This document shows positions 1-9,776 of a DNA stretch of 64,000 nt, piece by piece (the stretch's first letter is position 1; each line of letters begins with the position of its first letter). Position numbers and translations under genes: made by a program. A model generated the notes under the pieces. That model saw only the letters and a program-made list of their open reading frames with translations. It did no database searches and was not told where the DNA came from. This DNA is from Prosthecobacter sp. SYSU 5D2 (GTDB lineage Bacteria; Verrucomicrobiota; Verrucomicrobiia; Verrucomicrobiales; Verrucomicrobiaceae), in the NCBI RefSeq assembly GCF_039655865.1, contig NZ_JBBYXL010000015.1:1-64000 (forward strand). Direction: 5' to 3'.

Positions 1-1365
1 TGTCTGGGCTCCAGCAGTTGTCACTGAGGTCCCGCCCAGGATGTTGAACACCGTGCTGCCTGCGGCATCGGTGGTCAGGCTGGCCAGCGCGCGGTTGCCT
101 CCCACATTGTCAGCTCCACCATTGCCAAACTGGGTCGCTCCACCCGTGTTCACCGTCAATGAGCGCACTGCTGCAGCCAGCGCATCCGTGTCCACCGTCG
201 AATTGAAGCTGATGTTCCCCGCTGTGCTGCTCGACAGCACCGTGTCCATCATCAGGGTCACCGCGTCGTTGTATGTCTGGGTCGTGCTGGTGGTCACTGA
301 AGTGCCGCCCAGGATGTTGAACACCGTGCTGCCTCCGGCATCGGTGGTCAGGCTCAGCAGAGCGCGGGTTGCGCCCACGTTATCAGCTCCGCCATTGCCA
401 AACTGGGTCGCTCCTCCGGTGTTCACTGTCAGCGAACGGAATGCCAGGGCTGCTGCATCCGTGTCCACTGTCGAGTTAAAGCTGATGTTCCCAGCCGTGG
501 TGCTCGCCAGCGCCGTGTCCAGCATCAGTGCCACCGAATCATTGTAAGTCTGTGCACCACTCGTTGTGATAGAAGTGCCGCCCAGGATGTTGAATACCGT
601 GCTGCCGGCTGCATCCGTGGTCAGGCTCAGCAGAGCGCGGGTTGCGCCCACGTTGTCTGCTCCGCCATTGCCAAATCCGGTTATTCCGCCGGTGTTCACT
701 GTCAGCGAGCGGAATGCCAGGGCCGCTGCATCCGTGTCCACTGTCGAGTTGAAGCTGATGTTCCCAGACGTGGTGCTGGCCAGCACCGTGTCGAGCATCA
801 GTGTCACAGCGTCATTGTAAGTCTGGGTGGTGCTGGTTGTCACTGAAGTGCCGCCCAGGATGTTAAACACCGTGCTGCCGGCTGCATCCGTGGTCAGGCT
901 TGCCAGAGCGCGGGTTGCACCCACGTTGTCTGCGCCGCCATTGCCAAACTGTGTGGTCCCGCCGGTGTTTACTGTCAGCGCGCGGAATGCCAGGGCCGCT
1001 GCATCGGTATCCACTGTCGAGTTGAAGCTGACGTTTCCAGACGTGGTGCTGGCCAGCACCGTGTCGAGCATCAGTGTCACAGCGTCATTGTAAGTCTGGG
1101 TGGTGCTGGTCGTCACTGAAGTGCCACCCAGGATGTTGAACACCGTGCTGCCGGCTGCATCCGTGGTCAGGCTTGCCAGAGCGCGGGTTGCTCCCACGTT
1201 GTCGGCTCCGCCATTACCGAACTGGGTCGCTCCGCCGGTGTTCACCGTCAGCGAGCGAAGCGCCAAGGCCGCTGCGTTAGTATCCACCGTTGAGTTGAAA
1301 CTGATGTTACCGGCTGTGGTGCTGGTCAGCACTGCATCCAGCATCAATGTCACCGCACCACCATA
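1..1365 (-). repeat. Five in-frame tandem repeats of 273 bp (91 residues) in the exoprotein
   Basis: Units begin at about 1, 274, 547, 820 and 1093, exactly 273 bp apart, with a degenerate start of a sixth near 1366. Conserved pieces in the protein include SGNISFNSTVDTDAA, LTVNTGG and GSTVFNILGGTSVTT. Because 273 is divisible by 3 the copies keep frame. The array probably continues left of the window. Confidence 0.9.
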
Positions 1366-4300
1366 AGTCTGGGTGGAAGCGGATGTGATGGCACTTGTGT
1401 TGATCAGGGTGGTTCCGGTGACCTGTAACGTGCCCAGGCCGGTGACGGTGTCCGCTGCCTCATTGCCAAAAACGGCATTGCCGGTGACCAGGAGGTTGTT
1501 GTTTCCACCAACAACCGTACCTTCGGTGGTGATGGTGCTGCCCGCCAGTTCAGAATTGCCAGCCAGCGTCAGAGTGCCTTTATAAAGCTGCGTGCCAGCG
1601 GTGGTGAAAAGACCGTTCACATTGATGGCTTTTTCGGAAGTGAAGTTATCCACGCCGGTGATGCCGCCTGCCAGGGTGAAGGCGGTGCTGAAGTCGAGGG
1701 TCAGGTCGTTGGTGCCGCCTGTCAGGCCGGAGGCAAGGGTGAGGGTGGTGCCGGTGAGGGTGGAATCGCCCGTCAGAGTAACGGCCGCATTGTAGGTCTG
1801 GGAGCCGGTGGTGGTGAAGGAACCGTTGATGTTGATGGCCTTCTGGGAGATGAAGTTCTGCACGCCAGTGATGCTGCCGGGAAGCGTGAATGCGGTGCTG
1901 AAATCCAACGTCAGATTGTTGCCGCCGCCTGTCAGGCCGGAGGCCAGAGTCAGAGAGGTGCCAGTGAGGGTGGAGTTGCCCGTCAGCGTGGCTGCGGCGT
2001 TGTAGGTTTGGGAGCCGGTAGTTGTAAAAGCGCCATTGATGTTGATGGCCTTCTGGGAGATGAAATTCTGCACTCCAGTGATGTTGCCGGGCAGGGTAAA
2101 GGCGGTGCTGAAATCCAACGTCAGATTGTTGCCGCCGCCTGTCAGGCCGGAGGCCAGAGTCAGAGAGGTGCCAGTCAGGGTGGAGTTGCCCGTCAGGGTG
2201 GCTGCGGCGTTGTAGGTCTGGGAGCCGGTGGTGGTAAAAGCGCCATTGATGTTGATGGCCTTCTGGGAGATGAAATTCTGCACGCCGGTGATGTTGCCGG
2301 GAAGCGTGAAAGCAGTGCTGAAATCCAAAGTCAGGTTGTTGCCGCCGCCCACCAGGCCGGAAGCCAGGGTCAGGGAGGTGCCCGTCAGGGTGGAATTGCC
2401 CGTCAGGGTGGCTGCGGCGTTGTAGGTCTGGGAGCCGGTGGTGGTGAAGGCGCCGTTGATGTTGATGGCTTTTTCGGAAGTGAAGTTATCCACACCAGTG
2501 ATGCCGCCGGCCAGGGTGAAGGCGGTACTGAAATCGAGGGTCAGGTCGTTGGAGCCGCCGGCCAGGCCGGAGGCCAGGGTGAGGGTGGTGCCGGTGAGGA
2601 CCGTATCGCCAGCCAAGGTGACTGCTGAATTGTAGGTTTGGGTGCCGGTCGTGGTCACGGAACCTGCATTGAGGGAGATGCCGCTGCCGCCCGTGGCATT
2701 GAGGGAGGCGAGGTTGAGGGCACCGCCGAGAGTGAGGTTGGTGCCAGCGTTAAGAGTGAGCGCAGACCCTGCCACTTTGGCAACGGTGGACAGGATGATG
2801 GAGGCATCATCGGACTGAAGCGTGTAGGTGGCCGGGACCGTGCCGCCAAACTGGGCCGCTGCGGCGATATTGGCATCGGCAATGGCTGCATCCTGGCGGT
2901 GGGTAAAGGAGACGGGTGCTGCCGCACCGGCGGTATTCCGGAAAGCGGGATTGTTGGTCACTAGATTGGCGACTGCTGCGGTACCGCCGCCTGCGCCGTT
3001 GCCAGCCCGATAGCTCTGAGTATTCGCCTGCACAGTCACGCCAGCTCCAAAGGAGAGGTCGCCTGTGCCATCGGTGCCGGAATGAACAGAGAGGGAGGAA
3101 GCAGTCAGGTTGTTGTTGATGCCGATATTACCGGTGGCGGCCAGGGACATGCTGCCCAGGGTGGTCAAATCAGCGGTGGTGGCCAGAGAACCTCCGCCAT
3201 TGGTGATGCTGATGCCGCCATTGGCCGTCATGGCACCCACTGAGAGAGCTGCAACATTGTCCACCAGAGTGAAACTACCAGCGCCCAGGTTGATGGTTCC
3301 GAGGCCGGCGATGTTGTTGTTGACACTGTTTAGGGTGACCGATCCGTTATCGGTCGTCACATTCAAAGTGAGAGTTTCAATGCGGCCATTGGCACCTGCG
3401 CTTTGGGAGATGGTTGCTGCGGCGTTTAAAACGGTCAGCGTCGTGCTTCCGATGCCTGTCAGGATGCCCTGGGTGGCATTCACCAGCCCGACGGTGAAGC
3501 CGGAGGAATTGGTGAATGAAAGGCTGTCATTGGCAAAGCCAGCAAAAGTGGCGATGGTGTTGACGTCAGCAACCGCAAGGCCAGTGGGGTTGAGGAAGAC
3601 ACTTCCTGAACTGGACTGGCCACGCAAAGAATCAGCGGTGATGCCAGCTCCGGTATTGGCCTGGGTGACGCCCAGTGAACCAATCAAAGCTACCTGCGCC
3701 CCGCCTGCATTGATCTGGTTATTTACCTGAACCGTGCCAGAGGAATTCAGCGTAATATTTGAATTAGTAGCCGTGATGCCGCCTGTGACCGTGACATTGC
3801 CACCGAAGTTATTGATCGCCACATTGCCCGCAGAAATGATCGGGCCTACATTCATTCCACCGGGGCGTGTCTGCCCAAAACCCAACCCGCCGCTGCCCAC
3901 CCCTGCACCGCCCGTCTGAAGGGCCCCGATGTTGTGGGCTACTGTTTGAATGCTGACACCGCCTGTGGCCCCGGTTGCAACCGTGAGGGAGTCGGTGGTA
4001 ATGGCACCTCCCGTGGCGGTAATGCCGCCATTGCCGGACGTCAGGGAAATATTGTTATATGTTACAGGGGCATTAATCGTCACCGCTCCCCCGGCATTGA
4101 CGATAAGCCCACCGGTCAAGGTGTTGGTGATGGCAGCGTCAGCGATGAAGTCTCCGGCCGCATTGAAGGTCAGGGAGTTGGCCGAGTTCAAATCCGGGCT
4201 GGCATCGGTGACGGTGATGTTGCCTGGATCTGCCCCCAGTGCAGAAGTAGTGACAACCAAAACCCCAAGTCCCAACTGAGTTTGAATGTGGGCCCAGCTC

Positions 4301-5595
4301 ACGTTGTTGACTCCATCATGAGCGGCATTGCTGATGGTCATGTTCGTGGGATCCAGCAGGAGCGTGCCAGCCTGCCCGGCTGGGGCGCGCAGGTCCGCCA
4401 AGCCGCGATAAAGCAGGTTGCTTTTCCCGGAGACTTCAGCAAAGCCGCCATTGCCGCCAGCCACGCCGCCGCGTGCAGAGATGTCGCCGTGGTAAACGGT
4501 ATCCTGGTCTGCCCAGACGATGACTTTGCCGCCGTTGCCTTTTTCAGTGGCATCGGCCTTGATGGAGGCTCCGGCTTCAACGGTTGTGGTGTCTGCTGTG
4601 GGGACGGTGCCCTGACCCTGGTAATCCCCGCCAACGAGGACGGTGCCGCCGCCGAGAGCGCCGCTGGCGTCCAGCTTGGAGCCGGAGGCGATTTTGACGT
4701 CTTTGCCAGTGACCTGGATGTCCCCGCCCTTGGTGCCTTTGCTGGCGGTGAGGCTACCGCTGTTGGTCACCTTGCCGCCGCCGGCGCTGAGGAAGATCTT
4801 GCCGCCTTTCATGACAGCGCCTGTGGCCTTGACGGTGCCGGAGTTGTTCACGGCGAGGGCGTAGATATTGCCACCATTGGCCTTCAGCTCGGCCTGGACG
4901 GCTTCGATGTTGCCGGAGTTATCCACGCCAGTGCCGCCGACATTGCCTGCGCTGGCGGGCTTGACCTGGATGCGCTCTTCACCGGTGCGGACGAGGGTGA
5001 TCTCCTGCCCGGCAGCCAGGCCGACGTCACCATTGGGAGCGATGATCTCGCCCTTATTGTCCACATGCCGTGCAAACAGCATGACGTCACCTTCGGAGGC
5101 ATTCACCTTACCGAGGTTCTGGACGGCAGCTCCGGAATTACCGGAGAAGTTGACGCTTTCGGAAAGGCCGTTGGCGTAGTTCAGGAACTCACCGTTGGAG
5201 ACATCCAGCGTGGAGGCGAGGAAGCTGCCGGTCTGAATGATGCCGGTGTTGCCGATCAGGGTGCCATTGGGGTTGATGAGCCAGATGGTGCCATTGGCTT
5301 TCAGGGTGCCCTCGATCATTGAGGGAGTGATGCCGGTGACCCGGTTCAGGGCGGCCCCGCCGGCCGGCTGATTGAAAATGGTGCTTTCCCCCAGGGCGAT
5401 GGAGAAGGACGACCAGTTGATGATGGCCGCCTTGCTGGCCTGGTTAATGATCATCTGGTTCCCGTTAATAATAGGGGGCGCGACCACACCTGCCTGCAAA
5501 TTGAAACCCGTCGGATTGGCAAACGCGTAGGGACCCGGGATAAGGCTGATGGCAGCCGTGAAGAGCATGAGGGTGTCGCGGAAAAGACGATTCAT
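1..5595 (-). CDS. Giant filamentous-haemagglutinin-type exoprotein (two-partner secretion), 3' end beyond window
   Basis: Open from an ATG at 5595 to the left edge: 1,865 codons with no stop, C-terminus missing. Residues 1-26 form a signal peptide (MNRLFRDTLMLFTAAISL, ending near AFA). It is followed by a haemagglutinin/TPS N-terminal domain with the diagnostic NPTGF and NPNGT motifs (LINPNGTLIGNTG), then a long Gly/Asn/Thr/Ser-rich beta-helix-like stalk. Toward the window edge the stalk becomes two arrays of in-frame tandem repeats (70-residue and 91-residue units, listed separately). TPS exoproteins are exported by Sec and cross the outer membrane through a TpsB/Omp85-type partner; no partner is in this window. 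Probable role is adhesion or biofilm matrix, which is inference. It is preceded on the same strand by a NusG paralogue and a 550-base leader. An autotransporter rather than TPS route is possible because the C-terminus is unseen. Confidence 0.85.
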   Translation of the reverse strand, partial: MNRLFRDTLMLFTAAISLIPGPYAFANPTGFNLQAGVVAPPIINGNQMIINQASKAAIINWSSFSIALGESTIFNQPAGGAALNRVTGITPSMIEGTLKANGTIWLINPNGTLIGNTGIIQTGSFLASTLDVSNGEFLNYANGLSESVNFSGNSGAAVQNLGKVNASEGDVMLFARHVDNKGEIIAPNGDVGLAAGQEITLVRTGEERIQVKPASAGNVGGTGVDNSGNIEAVQAELKANGGNIYALAVNNSGTVKATGAVMKGGKIFLSAGGGKVTNSGSLTASKGTKGGDIQVTGKDVKIASGSKLDASGALGGGTVLVGGDYQGQGTVPTADTTTVEAGASIKADATEKGNGGKVIVWADQDTVYHGDISARGGVAGGNGGFAEVSGKSNLLYRGLADLRAPAGQAGTLLLDPTNMTISNAAHDGVNNVSWAHIQTQLGLGVLVVTTSALGADPGNITVTDASPDLNSANSLTFNAAGDFIADAAITNTLTGGLIVNAGGAVTINAPVTYNNISLTSGNGGITATGGAITTDSLTVATGATGGVSIQTVAHNIGALQTGGAGVGSGGLGFGQTRPGGMNVGPIISAGNVAINNFGGNVTVTGGITATNSNITLNSSGTVQVNNQINAGGAQVALIGSLGVTQANTGAGITADSLRGQSSSGSVFLNPTGLAVADVNTIATFAGFANDSLSFTNSSGFTVGLVNATQGILTGIGSTTLTVLNAAATISQSAGANGRIETLTLNVTTDNGSVTLNSVNNNIAGLGTINLGAGSFTLVDNVAALSVGAMTANGGISITNGGGSLATTADLTTLGSMSLAATGNIGINNNLTASSLSVHSGTDGTGDLSFGAGVTVQANTQSYRAGNGAGGGTAAVANLVTNNPAFRNTAGAAAPVSFTHRQDAAIADANIAAAAQFGGTVPATYTLQSDDASIILSTVAKVAGSALTLNAGTNLTLGGALNLASLNATGGSGISLNAGSVTTTGTQTYNSAVTLAGDTVLTGTTLTLASGLAGGSNDLTLDFSTAFTLAGGITGVDNFTSEKAININGAFTTTGSQTYNAAATLTGNSTLTGTSLTLASGLVGGGNNLTLDFSTAFTLPGNITGVQNFISQKAININGAFTTTGSQTYNAAATLTGNSTLTGTSLTLASGLTGGGNNLTLDFSTAFTLPGNITGVQNFISQKAININGAFTTTGSQTYNAAATLTGNSTLTGTSLTLASGLTGGGNNLTLDFSTAFTLPGSITGVQNFISQKAININGSFTTTGSQTYNAAVTLTGDSTLTGTTLTLASGLTGGTNDLTLDFSTAFTLAGGITGVDNFTSEKAINVNGLFTTAGTQLYKGTLTLAGNSELAGSTITTEGTVVGGNNNLLVTGNAVFGNEAADTVTGLGTLQVTGTTLINTSAITSASTQTYGGAVTLMLDAVLTSTTAGNISFNSTVDTNAAALALRSLTVNTGGATQFGNGGADNVGATRALASLTTDAAGSTVFNILGGTSVTTSTTQTYNDAVTLMLDTVLASTTSGNVSFNSTVDTDAAALAFRALTVNTGGTTQFGNGGADNVGATRALASLTTDAAGSTVFNILGGTSVTTSTTQTYNDAVTLMLDTVLASTTSGNISFNSTVDTDAAALAFRSLTVNTGGITGFGNGGADNVGATRALLSLTTDAAGSTVFNILGGTSITTSGAQTYNDSVALMLDTALASTTAGNISFNSTVDTDAAALAFRSLTVNTGGATQFGNGGADNVGATRALLSLTTDAGGSTVFNILGGTSVTTSTTQTYNDAVTLMMDTVLSSSTAGNISFNSTVDTDALAAAVRSLTVNTGGATQFGNGGADNVGGNRALASLTTDAAGSTVFNILGGTSVTTAGAQT
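1586..2635 (-). repeat. Five in-frame tandem repeats of 210 bp (70 residues) in the exoprotein
   Basis: Units begin at 1586, 1796, 2006, 2216 and 2426 with exact 210-bp spacing. Each encodes a block with AININGAFTTTGSQTYNA, LTGTSLTLASGL and NNLTLDFSTAFTL. The three middle copies (1796-2425) are nearly identical at DNA level; the outer two differ more, as expected when an array expands from the middle by unequal crossing-over. Confidence 0.9.
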
Positions 5596-5857
5596 AGCAG
5601 CTTTCTGGAGTTAAATTAATCCTTTAACCTTAGCGGGCTGAGCGTGGCGAGCCGTGCATGGTTTGTCTAGGCCAAAATGTTCAAAAAAAGTCAGCTGTTT
5701 TTTAATGCTTTCATCCTCAACGAAAAACTATATGTCAGAAAGTTGATTCAGTGGATGAAATGGTGTTTTTCTATAATTATGATATCTGCCGGGTTCTTTT
5801 TCTGAAGAACGTAGTCCTGCAAGAAGTCATGTCTTTTCATTTTCCACGAAAATATCA

Positions 5858-5868
5858 GGGCTACCGAC
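5858..5868 (-). promoter_or_regulatory. Possible ops-like element in the exoprotein leader
   Basis: On the minus strand this reads GTCGGTAGCCC, matching the enterobacterial ops element (GGCGGTAGCGT, the RfaH loading site) at 8 of 11 positions including the core CGGTAGC. It lies about 265 bases upstream of the exoprotein start, on the transcript expected to be read through from the NusG paralogue. A 7-base core has roughly a 3% chance of occurring on one strand of a 550-base leader, so this is only suggestive. Confidence 0.25.
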
Positions 5869-5998
5869 GTATTTATTTAACTCATATTTATCGTTTATTC
5901 ATAAGAAGAAAATTCCCAAGCGCAGTGCGGAGAGAGGGGGGGGAAGACACACGCGCGGCTGGATTTAGTGCGGTATCCGAGCAGAAGGAGCTCATGGA

Positions 5999-6021
5999 GG
6001 TGCATGGCCTTTCCATGCACC
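5999..6021. terminator. Perfect 9-bp hairpin downstream of the NusG paralogue
   Basis: GGTGCATGG, loop CCTTT, CCATGCACC. It lies about 130 bases after the NusG-paralogue stop codon, in the leader of the exoprotein. There is no U-tract on either strand, so it is not a textbook intrinsic terminator. It could be a pause or antitermination hairpin. Confidence 0.35.
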
Positions 6022-6148
6022 GCATCAACCGGAATCGGCGATGGATCTCACCACCGGCGGCAAATCCGGTCTCATTCAGCCAGATGACAGCAGGTCCAGC
6101 CTTCATCCATGTGCGGATTCCGGGCTTTAATGGAGAAGACAGAGGAAT

Positions 6149-6724
6149 TCAGGCTTTTTTGCGCCGGATCCCGGCATCTTCTTTTGAAGAACCTGCTAGC
6201 ACATCGCGGGGTGTGTGCTCAGCGAGGAGATTGGACGTGCTGACTTCGACCAGGCTTTCCCTTCCCAGAAAATCCATCAGGATTTTCACACGCTCCTGGC
6301 CGTCCTGGATGCTGTTGACGATGCCTTTGAGCCCGCGCATAGGCCCGTCGGTCAGTTCCACCGTATCGCCTACGTTCACGCCCACGTGGACAACTTTGAC
6401 ATCCTGGCCTTCCATCTCCTCGCGCAGCAGGCGGATGATGTCATCGGAAACGGAGACCATTTGCTCCCCGAAATCCACAATGCGGATAACGTTTTGAGAG
6501 TGGCGGACCGCACGGACCGAAAGGGCGGGGACAAAGCGCGCAAACATGTATCCCGGGAAGAGCGCCTCCATGAACCAGACCTTGCCGCGCCGGGTGTTCT
6601 TTTGGAAACGGATGCGCGGGCAGTAGGTCTCCACCTCCGGCAGGGTCTGCATCACGGCGGCGGCCAGGTGCTCACACTTGGGCCTGGTGTGGATGACATA
6701 CCAGGCGGGTTGATCGGAGAACAT
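6149..6724 (-). CDS. NusG-family transcription elongation/antitermination paralogue (RfaH/UpxY/LoaP-like)
   Basis: 191 residues from the ATG at 6724; a GTG at 6736 would add four residues. NusG N-terminal domain begins at the AWYVIHTRPKCEH segment and includes the FPGYMFARF motif near residues 55-65. A KOW domain follows around residue 119 (GDTVELTDGPMRGLKGIV), and the protein ends in a short basic tail. It lacks the close sequence feel of housekeeping NusG and is not beside secE or rplK, the usual nusG context. It lies between rnr (45 bases upstream) and a very long exoprotein gene. Specialised NusG paralogues typically load on RNA polymerase at a leader signal and suppress termination in long operons. 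That it acts on the downstream exoprotein is inference from position. Confidence 0.8.
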   Translation of the reverse strand: MFSDQPAWYVIHTRPKCEHLAAAVMQTLPEVETYCPRIRFQKNTRRGKVWFMEALFPGYMFARFVPALSVRAVRHSQNVIRIVDFGEQMVSVSDDIIRLLREEMEGQDVKVVHVGVNVGDTVELTDGPMRGLKGIVNSIQDGQERVKILMDFLGRESLVEVSTSNLLAEHTPRDVLAGSSKEDAGIRRKKA

Positions 6725-6781
6725 GTTCACGTTCACGCAAGGTGCAGGGTGCGGGCCAGAATGAAAGCGCCTGCCTGATGG

Positions 6782-9358
6782 TCATGACTTTTTCTTTTTG
6801 GCTGCGGGTGCAGGGGCGGCGGCCTTCTTTTTGCCAAAGCCGAGGCGGTGGTACCATTTTTTGGCGGCCTCGGGAGGGGCCTCGACAGGTTCCTCCTTGC
6901 GGCTGGCACCCCGGGCACGGCGCGGGCGCTCTTCCCGAGGTTCGTCATTCTTGGAGGGACGGGGTTTTCCCTGGCGGGAGCGTGGATTTTCCTGGCCACG
7001 GTCCTGGTCGGCGACTTTGGCGGCTTTTTTTGGGGTGGATCTGCCACGGCGGGGTTCTTCCTGGCGATGCTCGGGCATGGGTTCAGGCTGGCGATCTGTA
7101 TCCCGGCGGCTGCGGCCACGGTCTGATGAGCTTCTAGAGGAGGTGCGGCCACGGCCGGGCTCGGCCGGGCGGGAGCGGTCGCCGCTACGGGGGCGGTCGG
7201 AGCGGCTTTCCTCACTGCGTGAGCGCTCGGGACGGGCGGTGGCGGTGCCATCGGTGACGAGCTGGAAGTCCACCATCTTTTTAAAGCGGTCCAGCTTGTA
7301 GATCTGCACGGTGACTTTGTCGCCAAGCTTGATGACGCGGCGGCTGTGGCGGCCGATGAGGTGGTTGCGGGTGGGTTCGAGGATGAAAAAATCATCCTTG
7401 ATGGAGGACAGCGGCACGACGCCGCTCATGCCCAGGTCGGGCACGTCCACAAAGAAGCCGAAGTTACGCGTATCGGTGACGAGTGCGGGGTAGGGCGTCG
7501 GTTCACCGGAGGTGAGCTGCGCTTCCAGGTAGGCATACAGCTTCACTTCCTTGCTGTCGCGCTCGGCATCGGCGGAGTTCTTTTCAGTCTCCGTGATGTG
7601 CTCGGCGATCTGTTTCATCACCGGGATGGGGGCCTCCACTTTGTCAAACAACACGCGATGCACGACGAGGTCGGCGTAACGGCGGATGGGGGAGGTGAAG
7701 TGGGTGTATTTGGTTTTGGCCAGGCCGTAATGGCCCAGCGGCTCCACGGCATAACGGGCGCGCATGAGCGAGCGGAGGAAGCCGATTTTCAGCGCCTGGC
7801 CGATGGGCAGGGTGCCGAGCTTGGCGAGGAGCTTTTGGACTTCTGGGCGGTGGGTGAGGTCGCCACACTGGATGCGGTGGCTGAGGACGTCCTCGCGGTA
7901 GTCCTGGAGCTTTTTGTCCTTCGGCGCTTCGTGGATGCGGTAAACCGCCGGGCGGTTGCGCTTCATGAGGTCGGCAGCCACGGCTTCGTTGGCCAGCAGC
8001 ATGTATTCTTCGATGAGCTGGTGTGATTCGTCGTTCTCGATGCGCTCTATGCGAAGGACTTTCCCCTGGGCATCTAGGCGGATTTTGTTTTCCGGGAAGT
8101 CGAGGTCGAGCGAGCCGTTGTCGAACCGGGCCTTGCGGATGCGCTGGGCCATGTCGTGGGCATCGTGCAGCATGGATTCGATGTCGCCCACGGGCCGGCG
8201 CTGGATGACGGCATACGCTTCTTTATAGGTGAAGCGCTTTTTGGAGCGGATCACGGCGGAGTAAAACTTCGTGGAGATGACCTCGCCGGTTTTCGACAGG
8301 AGAAACTCAGCACATTTGGTTAGACGGTCCACGTCCGGCTTCAGGGAGCACAGCTCATTGCTGAGCGCCTCAGGCAGCATGGGGATGACGCGGTCCACCA
8401 GGTAGGTGGAGTTGCCACGCTTTTTTGCCTCGACATCCAGGGGGCTGCCAGGGCGGACATAATGGGAAACATCCGCGATGTGAACCCACACCTTCCATTT
8501 GTCCCCTGGGACGGACTGAATGCAGATGGCATCATCAAAGTCGCGTGCATCATCCGGGTCAATGGTGATGACGTTGTGGCTGCGGCAGTCCACACGCCCT
8601 TCGCATTCCTCTTCCGCGGGCTGGTTGTCCGGCCGGGATTTGGCGATGGTGTTGGCCTCAGCCAGCACTTCTTTGGGAAAGTGCAGCGGCAGGGCGTAGT
8701 GACGCAGCACGGAGAGCATGTCCACGCCTTCGGCATCGGGTGCGCCGAGGACTTCCACCACTTCGCCTTCGGGCGGAGTATGGCGGTTTTCCCAGGCGGT
8801 GATTTCCACCACCACTTTGTCGCCGGGATTCGCCGGGCGGCCGACATCCTTCGGCTCCGGCACATAAATGTTGTGCGGGATGCGCGGATCATCCGGGATG
8901 ACGTAGAGGAGTTTTTTGCTCGTCTGCAGCGTGCCGACGAACTGCTTGCGCTTGCGCTCCAAAACGCGCACGACGGAGCCCGCATTGGTCTCCGGCACGC
9001 CTTTGCGCAGGCCGGTGGGTTTGACCTCCCGGCGCACCAAGACACGGTCGCCATGCAGGGCGGTGGAGGTGGCGCTTTCGGCGATGCTGAGCTCGCCGAT
9101 GCCGGACTCGTCCGGCTGTACGAAACCGCGGCCGCCGCGGGTGATCTGGATGACGCCGGGGATGAGATCGGCCTCGCGGGACTGGATGTAGCGGTTGCCC
9201 TTGGTGCGTACGATGACGCCTTTTTGTACCAGATCTGCCAGGACCTCTTGCAGCTCCTGCTGCTGGCCGCGTTTGAGCCGCAGGTGGCTGATGAGCTCAG
9301 GAACATTCGAAGGCGTGTAGTCCGCCTGCCCGAGCAGTTTGAGAATTTTCGATTCCAT
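6782..9358 (-). CDS. rnr: Ribonuclease R (3'-5' exoribonuclease, RNB family)
   Basis: 858 residues from an ATG at 9358. An N-terminal winged-helix/cold-shock region is followed by the RNB catalytic domain with the metal-binding motif DPDDARDFDDA at residues 267-277. An S1 RNA-binding domain (NFGFFVDVPDLGMSGVVPL) lies near residues 620-700. The last ~155 residues are a low-complexity basic tail rich in Arg, Ser, Pro and Glu ending in a lysine run. RNase R degrades structured RNA 3' to 5' and takes part in rRNA quality control and tmRNA-linked decay. It is likely the first gene of a minus-strand unit with the NusG paralogue. No Shine-Dalgarno sequence is visible before the start. Confidence 0.95.
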   Translation of the reverse strand: MESKILKLLGQADYTPSNVPELISHLRLKRGQQQELQEVLADLVQKGVIVRTKGNRYIQSREADLIPGVIQITRGGRGFVQPDESGIGELSIAESATSTALHGDRVLVRREVKPTGLRKGVPETNAGSVVRVLERKRKQFVGTLQTSKKLLYVIPDDPRIPHNIYVPEPKDVGRPANPGDKVVVEITAWENRHTPPEGEVVEVLGAPDAEGVDMLSVLRHYALPLHFPKEVLAEANTIAKSRPDNQPAEEECEGRVDCRSHNVITIDPDDARDFDDAICIQSVPGDKWKVWVHIADVSHYVRPGSPLDVEAKKRGNSTYLVDRVIPMLPEALSNELCSLKPDVDRLTKCAEFLLSKTGEVISTKFYSAVIRSKKRFTYKEAYAVIQRRPVGDIESMLHDAHDMAQRIRKARFDNGSLDLDFPENKIRLDAQGKVLRIERIENDESHQLIEEYMLLANEAVAADLMKRNRPAVYRIHEAPKDKKLQDYREDVLSHRIQCGDLTHRPEVQKLLAKLGTLPIGQALKIGFLRSLMRARYAVEPLGHYGLAKTKYTHFTSPIRRYADLVVHRVLFDKVEAPIPVMKQIAEHITETEKNSADAERDSKEVKLYAYLEAQLTSGEPTPYPALVTDTRNFGFFVDVPDLGMSGVVPLSSIKDDFFILEPTRNHLIGRHSRRVIKLGDKVTVQIYKLDRFKKMVDFQLVTDGTATARPERSRSEESRSDRPRSGDRSRPAEPGRGRTSSRSSSDRGRSRRDTDRQPEPMPEHRQEEPRRGRSTPKKAAKVADQDRGQENPRSRQGKPRPSKNDEPREERPRRARGASRKEEPVEAPPEAAKKWYHRLGFGKKKAAAPAPAAKKKKS

Positions 9359-9473
9359 AGAAAGAAAGCTGCACAGAATCCGCCCGAAATGTCACCCTTG
9401 TTTTTGTGGATGACGCACGTCCAGAGCGGAAAACTCTGCGTTATTAATAATGTGTGTTACGTTTGATGATCGC

Positions 9474-9776
9474 ATGAATCGCCGAGGTTTCCATTTCCAG
9501 CTTCAGGGTGTGCGCGGCTTCCGGGCCGTGCTGACCGTGGTCTTGATGGGGGCTGTCGCCCTCGGGGTCCTTGCATTGTTTTTGTTTGTCGGCCTTGCCG
9601 TAGCAATGGTTGGCCTGGGTCTGTCTGCCTGCGCGGCGCTTTATTTTGCCGTACGTCGCAAGCTCACAGGCAGCACCTATCGCTCATCTCCCCTGCAAGA
9701 TCAAGCCCATCGTGAAAATCCCCCCGCTGACGTCAAGGTCATTGAGGTGGATGCGGTGAAGGTGGAGAGGGAGTGA
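9474..9776 (+). CDS. Small membrane protein of unknown function
   Basis: 100 residues from the ATG at 9474; an in-frame ATG at 9450 would add eight. A basic N-terminus (MNRRGFHF) is followed by a hydrophobic stretch at about residues 20-60 long enough for two membrane segments with a tight turn, then RRK and a polar acidic tail. It is divergent from rnr with about 115 bases between starts, and its 3' end faces the DedA gene. I do not recognise a family. Confidence 0.6.
   Translation: MNRRGFHFQLQGVRGFRAVLTVVLMGAVALGVLALFLFVGLAVAMVGLGLSACAALYFAVRRKLTGSTYRSSPLQDQAHRENPPADVKVIEVDAVKVERE

Follow-up and report, generated by a model that had tools for sequence, protein, structure and literature searches.

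A divergent NusG paralogue is associated across genomes of its class with a DNA element that resembles E. coli ops, and the genes behind this element include DAHP synthases and polysaccharide genes. Judged from sequence, the paralogue is probably a trans-acting, RfaH-like factor for envelope-polysaccharide operons that would act via the ops-like element, and the exoprotein gene beside it a chance neighbour. We infer all functions attributed to the paralogue here, i.e. pausing, binding, displacement of NusG, and antitermination or ribosome recruitment. The window (the whole 64,000-nucleotide stretch of DNA that was analysed) contains every part of the gene order read in the initial annotation, namely rnr, the NusG paralogue, a gap and a two-partner-secretion (TPS) exoprotein, all on the minus strand:

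6782..9358, minus strand: rnr, ribonuclease R (RNase R equivalog, 648.7 bits), 45 bases upstream of the NusG paralogue
6149..6736, minus strand: NusG paralogue (nusG-SP), RfaH-like, 195 aa, GTG start (assigned from Pfam and NCBIfam, relatives, tree and residues)
Residues 11-104 and 122-152 of the paralogue: NGN and KOW domains, respectively (Pfam/NCBIfam)
5596..6148, minus strand: gap of 553 bases between the paralogue and the exoprotein ATG, without an ops-like element
5595..1, minus strand, open at its end: repeat-rich exoprotein with a TPS domain (84.6 bits), 1865 aa visible
4750..5466, minus strand: TPS secretion domain of the exoprotein (84.6 bits against a cut-off of 33.5)
1600..2655, strand not given: 210-bp tandem repeat in the exoprotein gene, five copies
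17..1376, strand not given: 273-bp tandem repeat in the exoprotein gene, five copies, towards the contig end

The paralogue had initially been classed as a specialised NusG of the RfaH type, and its NCBIfam scores, its position in the tree and a second NusG in the same genome bear this out. It is not the only NusG of its genome: a separate housekeeping nusG is located between tuf and rplK-rplA-rplJ-rplL-rpoB-rpoC (gene names read from translations), and its product scores 81.6 bits and exceeds the threshold of the NusG equivalog model (184.1 against 135.7), whereas the window paralogue reaches only 57.4 bits against that cut-off and is not located at rplK-rplA. With Pfam, the paralogue scores 47.8 bits for NusG and 22.1 for KOW, slightly below the KOW cut-off of 22.3. 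RfaH is its best NCBIfam model (TIGR01955, 94.4 bits against a cut-off of 144.5), followed by LoaP (NF033641, 64.2 against 125), UpxY (NF033644, 59.8 against 100) and NusG, each score lying below the cut-off of its family. In the tree, RfaH and 22 paralogues separate from E. coli NusG and nine housekeeping NusGs with support of 100/99; RfaH is represented there by one long branch, and the tree program cautions that such branches may be wrongly placed. The window protein is 23% identical to E. coli RfaH. RfaH residues E48 and F56 are each conserved in 21 of the 22 paralogues and absent from the NusGs, while F81 is conserved in 20 and I93 in 16; F56, which confers strong RNA polymerase binding, corresponds to F65 in the window protein, and the autoinhibition residues E48/I93/F130 correspond to E57, I101 and V140, the last in place of the phenylalanine. 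The residues with which RfaH contacts ops are mostly lost, as H20, R23, Q24 and R73 are mostly not conserved among the paralogues and the window protein has R18/V28/T31/Q81 at K10/H20/R23/R73 in an uncertain helix alignment, so that the contact set is not reproduced; R18 is a conservative replacement, and a basic residue occupies the K10 position in all nine housekeeping NusGs as well. The loop considered for loss of Rho binding reads IFG in NusG, LIN in RfaH and FLG in the window protein. An AlphaFold2 model of the paralogue built from three sequences has a mean pLDDT of 31.9, too low for conclusions on the fold of the CTD. The unconserved contacts, the missed RfaH cut-off and the long-branch warning all count against an RfaH-like factor.

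The element was first spotted as a conserved block in seven aligned gaps between the paralogue and DAHP synthase genes; in related genera a DAHP synthase-hldE operon comes after the paralogue and carries the ops-like element in its leader. The class-wide consensus, GACCAAGGGCGG(C/T)AGCNTG, is near to E. coli ops (GGCGGTAGCGTG), and the element in full has the consensus GACCAAGGGCGGYAGCNTG on the non-template strand, mostly no more than ~180 bases before the first gene. Bases G4, G5, A7 and G8 are retained in all but one of the seven gaps, whose alignment preceded the use of any pattern, and also in the protein-selected sites, where the score used for selection favours these bases. Of 112 sites, 91 have C at base 6. 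T6 is the base that is flipped out in the RfaH-ops complex, and its usual replacement by C is a further point against an RfaH-like factor. Scanning the window's genome for E. coli ops itself, with one mismatch allowed, proved useless, giving 1771 matches compared to 3457 for the control.

The paralogue is present in 188 of the 384 genomes sampled from the class, and the remaining 196 have no match. Of the 188 genomes with the paralogue, 46 contain sites that start with GACCAAG (67 sites in 15 families), as against none of the 196 others, and a looser exact pattern yields 123 sites in paralogue-bearing genomes as compared to 21 in the others (19 and 19 for a reversed control); the genomes are related by descent, and the Fisher p values are therefore not independent. 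The element is no more than 300 bases away from where the paralogue match ends in at least 19 genomes, which belong to six families (a list assembled by hand). It is unlikely that the element is instead a strong consensus pause, or another leader signal for RNA polymerase or the housekeeping NusG, with which the paralogue co-occurs by shared ancestry. Such an explanation would fit the relatedness of the genomes, the TG with which the element ends, as pauses do, and the statement in PMC5995543 that ops fits the consensus pause, but it leaves the absence of the GACCAAG form from genomes without the paralogue, the spread of sites over 15 families and the frequent position immediately behind the paralogue gene unaccounted for. 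It is also at odds with the retention of G4, G5, A7 and G8, which, according to PMC5995543, are required in E. coli for RfaH recruitment and not for pausing. An RfaH-like factor has its own difficulties here: 109 of the 188 genomes with the paralogue lack any exact match, even one to the looser pattern, and three draft genomes of the family (G008, G015 and G030) contain the element without a strong paralogue match.

In other genera the element is also found ahead of DAHP synthase genes that are not linked to the paralogue. Among loci selected by protein, it precedes 40 of 49 DAHP synthase-1 genes, at -104 to -174 (one at -342), and none of 20 DAHP synthase-2 genes, as judged by a score cut of 8 that was chosen after seeing the gap in scores (8.1 to -1.5) and by a matrix that leaves out the window's family; the nine DAHP synthase-1 loci without the element weigh against an RfaH-like factor. 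Thirty sites were selected by pattern, five of which have no suitable forward gene. The 25 first genes scanned behind the others include those for ABC2_membrane proteins (4), dTDP-sugar epimerases (3), UDP-galactopyranose mutases (2) and polysaccharide export proteins (2), as well as an O-antigen ligase, pyruvyl transferase, nucleotidyl transferase and epimerase. Some are not polysaccharide genes, which also argues against the RfaH-like reading: NAD synthase (2), PAPS reductase (1), response regulator (1), glycosyl hydrolase 16 (1) and domains of unknown function (2). The window's genome has the element before rmlA-rmlB and before a DAHP synthase-hldE-gmhA-flippase operon, both on another contig, and these two operons are the predicted targets. 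A candidate site reading GACGGGGGGCGGTAGCGTC lies 69 bases before another gene of this genome.

If the paralogue is an RfaH-like factor, RNA polymerase would reach the ops-like element early in an envelope-polysaccharide operon and probably pause there. The paralogue would then be recruited at the element and remain on the polymerase, where it would displace the housekeeping NusG, allowing the long operon to be completed. It is quite improbable that the protein is a bona fide RfaH acquired by horizontal transfer from Proteobacteria along with ops. RfaH being the best NCBIfam model and the near identity of the DNA signal to ops are what such a transfer would predict, but the 23% identity, the score under the family cut-off and the long E. 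coli branch do not fit it, and the occurrence of the paralogue in about half of the whole class points to an old presence rather than a recent transfer.

The initial annotation had proposed that the paralogue is a dedicated antiterminator of the adjoining TPS exoprotein with its 550-base untranslated leader, and had named a lack of conserved synteny in related genomes as speaking against this. Such a factor would act in cis through the leader, in the manner of LoaP or TaA. The shared strand, the adjacency, the long gap and the very long, repeat-rich gene suggested this arrangement, and long adhesins are known RfaH targets according to PMC7593976. The pair is not kept, however. Of the 68 genomes of the family, 64 have a strong paralogue match (best E 5e-51 or lower; exceptions G008, G015, G030 and G038) and 39 have TPS domains. 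Apart from the window's genome, 38 genomes thus carry a TPS domain, 37 of them with a strong paralogue match, and an exoprotein lies beside the paralogue in none, as compared by eye from match lists in which contig breaks could conceal a few pairs. The two share a contig only in G017 and G061, ~0.7 and 1.3 Mb apart. Twelve related exoproteins are located elsewhere in relatives, and the three whose upstream DNA was examined (L115, L117 and L120) each begin a few bases downstream of a preceding open frame and have no long leader. On the other side of the paralogue, rnr is directly upstream in 2 of 40 relatives' loci inspected (L072 and L073). Within the genus the neighbours of the paralogue vary and reveal no target; they were called by codon scoring, as longest-ORF calls were misled by antisense frames.

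The 553-base gap itself stands, while the "untranslated leader" is an intergenic gap in which an internal promoter is possible. Its GC content falls to 33% at 5700-5899, promoter-like matches in 5300-9600 (2, with 1.0 expected from shuffling) give no evidence either way, and a comparison of the leader region to Rfam returned only a chance miRNA match under the gathering score. No ops-like element was found in this leader: its best site scores -16.9 (shuffles mean -13.4, p 0.74) with a matrix that includes the DAHP synthase sites themselves, and at most 8 of 12 positions agree with the E. coli ops 12-mer, a level reached in 57% of shuffles. The leader does contain CGGTAGC, the core of ops, which would favour a cis-acting role, and was judged by the leader scoring to be a chance occurrence rather than a degenerate ops. 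The best-scoring word of the window (4750-4768, score 12.05) is found 827 bases into the exoprotein gene. This weak ops-like word was dismissed as a target site by the background rate, as the same matrix gives 12 comparable scores in 1.99 million positions besides six known leaders, ~0.8 per 64-kb window, and the matrix of the DAHP synthase locus test gives 16, ~1 per window; in a smaller background set, six of eight such sites in 1.33 million positions are genuine leaders. Words scoring ~15 occur near +2100 in the related exoproteins L116, L118 and L119, elsewhere in the gene than the window's word, and could otherwise have spoken for the dedicated role. A dedicated antiterminator is thus improbable, and the exoprotein is a neighbour not supported as a target.

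As of 2020, recruitment was understood in detail for E. coli RfaH and for no other representative, and RfaHs are found in 23 of 117 phyla with ~95% in Proteobacteria, according to PMC7593976. Verrucomicrobia may be among those 23 phyla. A search of open-licence papers by title and start of abstract found none on RfaH, ops or JUMPstart in Verrucomicrobia among the matches listed. If the paralogue has an RfaH-like role, this little-studied phylum would offer a second regulator, distant from RfaH, whose element is defined by sequence and whose regulon is predicted. The way in which NusG paralogues come to recognise DNA could then be tested independently of RfaH; the predicted regulon would be a first handle on the control of LPS and exopolysaccharide operons in these bacteria.

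The window's neighbour gene resembles FhaB-type two-partner-secretion exoproteins in its TPS and adhes_NPXG domains, but the sole ShlB-type transporter match is on another contig (G000:C5:446790-447845), and the far flank of the exoprotein is missing, as base 1 of the window is the first base of contig C15 and the C-terminus lies outside it. Like LoaP of Bacillus, the paralogue is a specialised NusG that would serve long operons, but it falls short of the LoaP cut-off (64.2 against 125 bits). LoaP is recruited via an RNA hairpin. UpxY, which acts on Bacteroides capsule operons, is likewise a specialised NusG linked to surface polysaccharide, and in several verrucomicrobial families the element directly follows the paralogue; the UpxY cut-off is missed (59.8 against 100 bits), and the predicted targets in the window's genome are unlinked. 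The closest likeness is to E. coli RfaH and its ops (JUMPstart) element: a paralogue exists besides the housekeeping NusG, its predicted targets, from sequence alone, are unlinked envelope-sugar operons, E48, F56, F81 and I93 are conserved among the paralogues, and the element matches GGCGGTAGCGTG as G1 G2 C3 G4 G5 Y6 A7 G8 C9 N10 T11 G12. The verrucomicrobial pair differs from RfaH and ops in that R73, H20 and F130 are not kept in the window protein, FLG replaces LIN, base 6 is mostly C, and the verrucomicrobial element has an extra upstream GACC. We lean towards the view that the ops signal is not confined to Proteobacteria, and that a divergent paralogue in about half of the sampled class reads nearly the same hairpin-forming non-template word with different contact residues and mostly C for the flipped T6; the ops code would then be either very old or reached twice, a consensus pause being a natural landing site.

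The initial annotation placed rnr, a specialised NusG (the paralogue), a leader and a TPS exoprotein on one strand, and gene and domain matches bear this layout out:

6782-9358, minus strand: rnr
6149-6736, minus strand: NusG paralogue, 195 aa
5596-6148, minus strand: gap of 553 bases from paralogue to exoprotein
5595 running off window base 1, minus strand: reading frame of the TPS-domain exoprotein
1600-2655: tandem repeat of 210-bp (70-aa) units in the exoprotein gene
17-1376: tandem repeat of 273-bp (91-aa) units in the exoprotein gene, toward the contig end

The end of the exoprotein is missing because the window begins at the first base of C15, one of 26 contigs in an assembly of 5.87 Mb, and the tandem repeats may be what broke the contig. 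The named relatives reached through protein matches were one Prosthecobacter MAG and one Verrucomicrobiaceae MAG. The genome's sole ShlB-type transporter match (L333, G000:C5:446790-447845) and its sole TPS exoprotein match lie on different contigs.

The protein in the window had been predicted to be a paralogue rather than the sole NusG, and to be of the RfaH type; both predictions held. A genome-wide search found one other NusG, which at 184.1 bits passes the NusG equivalog cut-off of 135.7 and sits at a ribosomal-protein locus, after tuf and before rplK, rplA, rplJ, rplL, rpoB and rpoC (names read from translations). The window paralogue scores 94.4 bits against the RfaH model, its best, 64.2 against LoaP, 59.8 against UpxY and 57.4 against NusG, in each case under the model's curated cut-off; all 16 family members scanned match the RfaH model, and the UpxY, LoaP and NusG models were matched too. 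A 33-protein tree has a split, supported at 100/99, with E. coli NusG and nine housekeeping NusGs on one side and E. coli RfaH with 22 paralogues from 12 families on the other; RfaH forms a long branch in this tree, and the program warns of possibly false long-branch joins.

The paralogue most likely acts in an RfaH-like manner on envelope-polysaccharide operons, in whose leaders we found a DNA word (the element) resembling ops, the RfaH recruitment signal of E. coli. In four genera (g7, g8, g9 and g11), the gene set after the paralogue opens with a DAHP synthase and an HldE-type kinase (functions by reading). Alignment of the paralogue-DAHP synthase gaps at the seven loci with this arrangement (L094, L095, L097-L100 and L105) revealed a single sharply conserved block, which reads GACCGG(G/T)GGCGG(C/T)AGCTTG in five gaps, while L094 holds a close variant and L100 is diverged. 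The likeness to ops was noticed on reading this alignment, ops-like words having earlier been sought in the window's leader. Among the matches listed in a pattern search of the family (68 Verrucomicrobiaceae genomes), the block also lies 29-127 bases 5' of DAHP synthase, carbamoyltransferase, ABC-exporter and glycosyltransferase genes, in genera in which the paralogue is not adjacent. Just 5' of the element at L095, L097, L098, L099 and L105 is a TGG...CCAG inverted repeat, which we take to resemble the E. coli JUMPstart sequence. At the seven loci, as at L194, L200-L203 and L205, a second DAHP synthase is accompanied by an HldE-type kinase, a GmhA-type isomerase and a flippase, and the head gene of these envelope operons is an aromatic-pathway enzyme.

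Across the class (384 Verrucomicrobiia genomes), a profile built from 16 paralogues, with an E-value limit of 1e-20 that the genome's own housekeeping NusG fails to reach, matched 188 genomes, which were scored as paralogue-bearing. The exact pattern GACCNNNGGCGGYAGCNTG, searched in the same 384 genomes, gave 144 sites: 123 fall in 79 of the 188 paralogue-bearing genomes and 21 in 17 of the 196 others; 109 of the 188 have no exact match. Since the reversed control pattern gave 19 sites in paralogue-bearing genomes and 19 in the others, the 21 sites found without the paralogue amount to background. The GACCAAG form, with 67 sites in 15 families, occurs in 46/188 paralogue-bearing genomes versus 0/196 of the others (Fisher 2e-16, which ignores kinship). 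Genus g12 has neither a paralogue match nor any element site in the class search. Phylum-wide, 29 of 387 genomes hold the GACCAAN form, including 7 from other classes (families f80, f81 and f85). Where position 7 is C there is no association (11/188 versus 13/196), and such sites were taken as chance.

With a score matrix derived from 102 sites, none of them in the window's family, we scanned the 400 bases 5' of DAHP synthase-1 genes, picked as orthologues by protein similarity at 50 loci, one of them too short. A site above 8 is present in 40 of the 49 leaders scored, at -104 to -174 save one at -342, compared with none of 20 leaders of DAHP synthase-2, the other copy (Fisher 9e-11), drawn from 20 family genomes, 17 of which are also in the DAHP synthase-1 set. 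Fourteen loci reached via the element or the paralogue were kept out of this count, and 13 of them score above 8. Around 40 paralogues, seven sites in 1.33 million positions reach 18, six of which are DAHP synthase leaders, with a matrix built with DAHP synthase leaders included.

The genes behind the element were sampled at one site in each of the 30 genomes that head the class-wide site listing, which yielded 25 usable forward genes. Among the Pfam matches listed for these were ABC-2 transporter (4), dTDP-4-dehydrorhamnose epimerase (3), UDP-galactopyranose mutase (2) and polysaccharide export (2), with nucleotidyl transferase, NAD-dependent epimerase, O-antigen ligase, polysaccharide pyruvyl transferase and Gfo/Idh oxidoreductase once each; other kinds listed were NAD synthase (2), PAPS reductase (1), response regulator (1), glycosyl hydrolase 16 (1) and domains of unknown function (2). 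The NAD synthase (L222, L224) and PAPS reductase family (L232) genes, assigned to these loci by our own reading, have no obvious surface-sugar role. In a separate scan of 17 hand-chosen genes at ten sites, 15 gave matches, to the kinds already named and to DAHP synthase, sugar kinase, isomerase, carbamoyltransferase and asparagine synthase, and the other two had no match. In at least 19 genomes, from six families, the paralogue match ends 95-292 bases before the element; an arrangement in cis, later separated in the window's genus, would fit.

In the window's own genome, a two-mismatch pattern gave 51 matches versus 26 for the control. Two of the 30 matches inspected precede envelope operons, both on contig C3: GACCGGGGGCGGCAGCTAC lies 117 bases 5' of a DAHP synthase, behind which come genes for a PfkB-type kinase, a SIS-domain isomerase and a polysaccharide flippase (presumably aroF-hldE-gmhA-wzx, by homology), and GACCAGAGGCGGCAGCTTG lies 54 bases 5' of the probable ATG start of a nucleotidyl transferase gene, the next gene being dTDP-glucose-dehydratase-like (presumably rmlA-rmlB, likewise). 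One further site (L187) is outside called genes, and the other 27 fall within them, as chance predicts. The DAHP synthase heading the envelope operon at L194 (C3:374000-392000) is a second copy, with ~51% identity to the genome's other one.

The initial annotation had instead regarded the paralogue as dedicated to the TPS exoprotein, and on present evidence this is wrong. The paralogue is strongly matched (E at most 5e-51) in 64 of the 68 family genomes (not in G008, G015, G030 and G038; 67 have some NusG match), and TPS domains occur in 39. Recurrence of the pair was sought in the 38 other genomes with a TPS domain, of which 37 also match the paralogue strongly, and adjacency was found in none, from lists compared by eye and with fragmented assemblies that could hide a few adjacent pairs; the two lie on separate contigs save in G017 and G061 (same contig, ~0.7 and ~1.3 Mb apart). 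Exoproteins akin to the window's, at 12 loci with 42-50% identity in the aligned portion of residues 1-300, are located elsewhere, and in the three with upstream DNA inspected (L115, L117 and L120) the exoprotein starts a few bases after another open frame. By eye, that frame is possibly FecR-like. The leader at 5596-6148 lacks the element: its best score is -16.9, under the shuffle mean (p 0.74), on a scale where the genome's own rmlA and DAHP synthase sites reach 27.8 and 21.1, and its best match to the E. coli ops 12-mer is 8/12, reached by 57% of shuffles. The window's top-scoring word (4750-4768, 12.05) is within the exoprotein gene, and such words arise by chance at ~0.8 per 64 kb. Words scoring ~15 near +2100 in three kin exoproteins (L116, L118 and L119) differ in place from the window's, and probably arose by chance in coding sequence rich in Gly and Ser codons.

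Among the literature matches listed, we found no description of an RfaH-like factor with its element in Verrucomicrobia, and a term search of the main texts of PMC7593976, PMC13015549, PMC9247905 and PMC7819879, figures and data sets lying outside it, returned no word beginning Verrucomicrob. In E. coli ops, according to PMC5995543, recruitment but not pausing depends on G4, G5, A7 and G8, the dinucleotide T11 G12 induces the pause, and H20, R23, Q24 and R73 form the pocket that takes up the flipped T6. The element keeps G4, G5, A7, G8, T11 and G12, whereas at base 6 C is present in 91 of the 112 class-wide sites; the positions fixed by the pattern are not independent evidence, while the seven-gap alignment is, and the protein-selected DAHP synthase set is in part. 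On the protein side (residue roles after the part of PMC7593976 consulted), RfaH residues E48 and F56 each recur in 21 of 22 paralogues and in none of the ten NusGs, and I93 is kept in 16; in contrast, F130 is replaced by V in 21 of 22, and at the R73 position nine have Q and two have R. The IFG of NusG that contacts Rho reads FLG in the window paralogue. The paralogue is not classed as RfaH because it falls short of the family cut-off and of several ops-contact residues; from its residues, it looks like a protein that would bind polymerase as RfaH does and read DNA with a different residue set.
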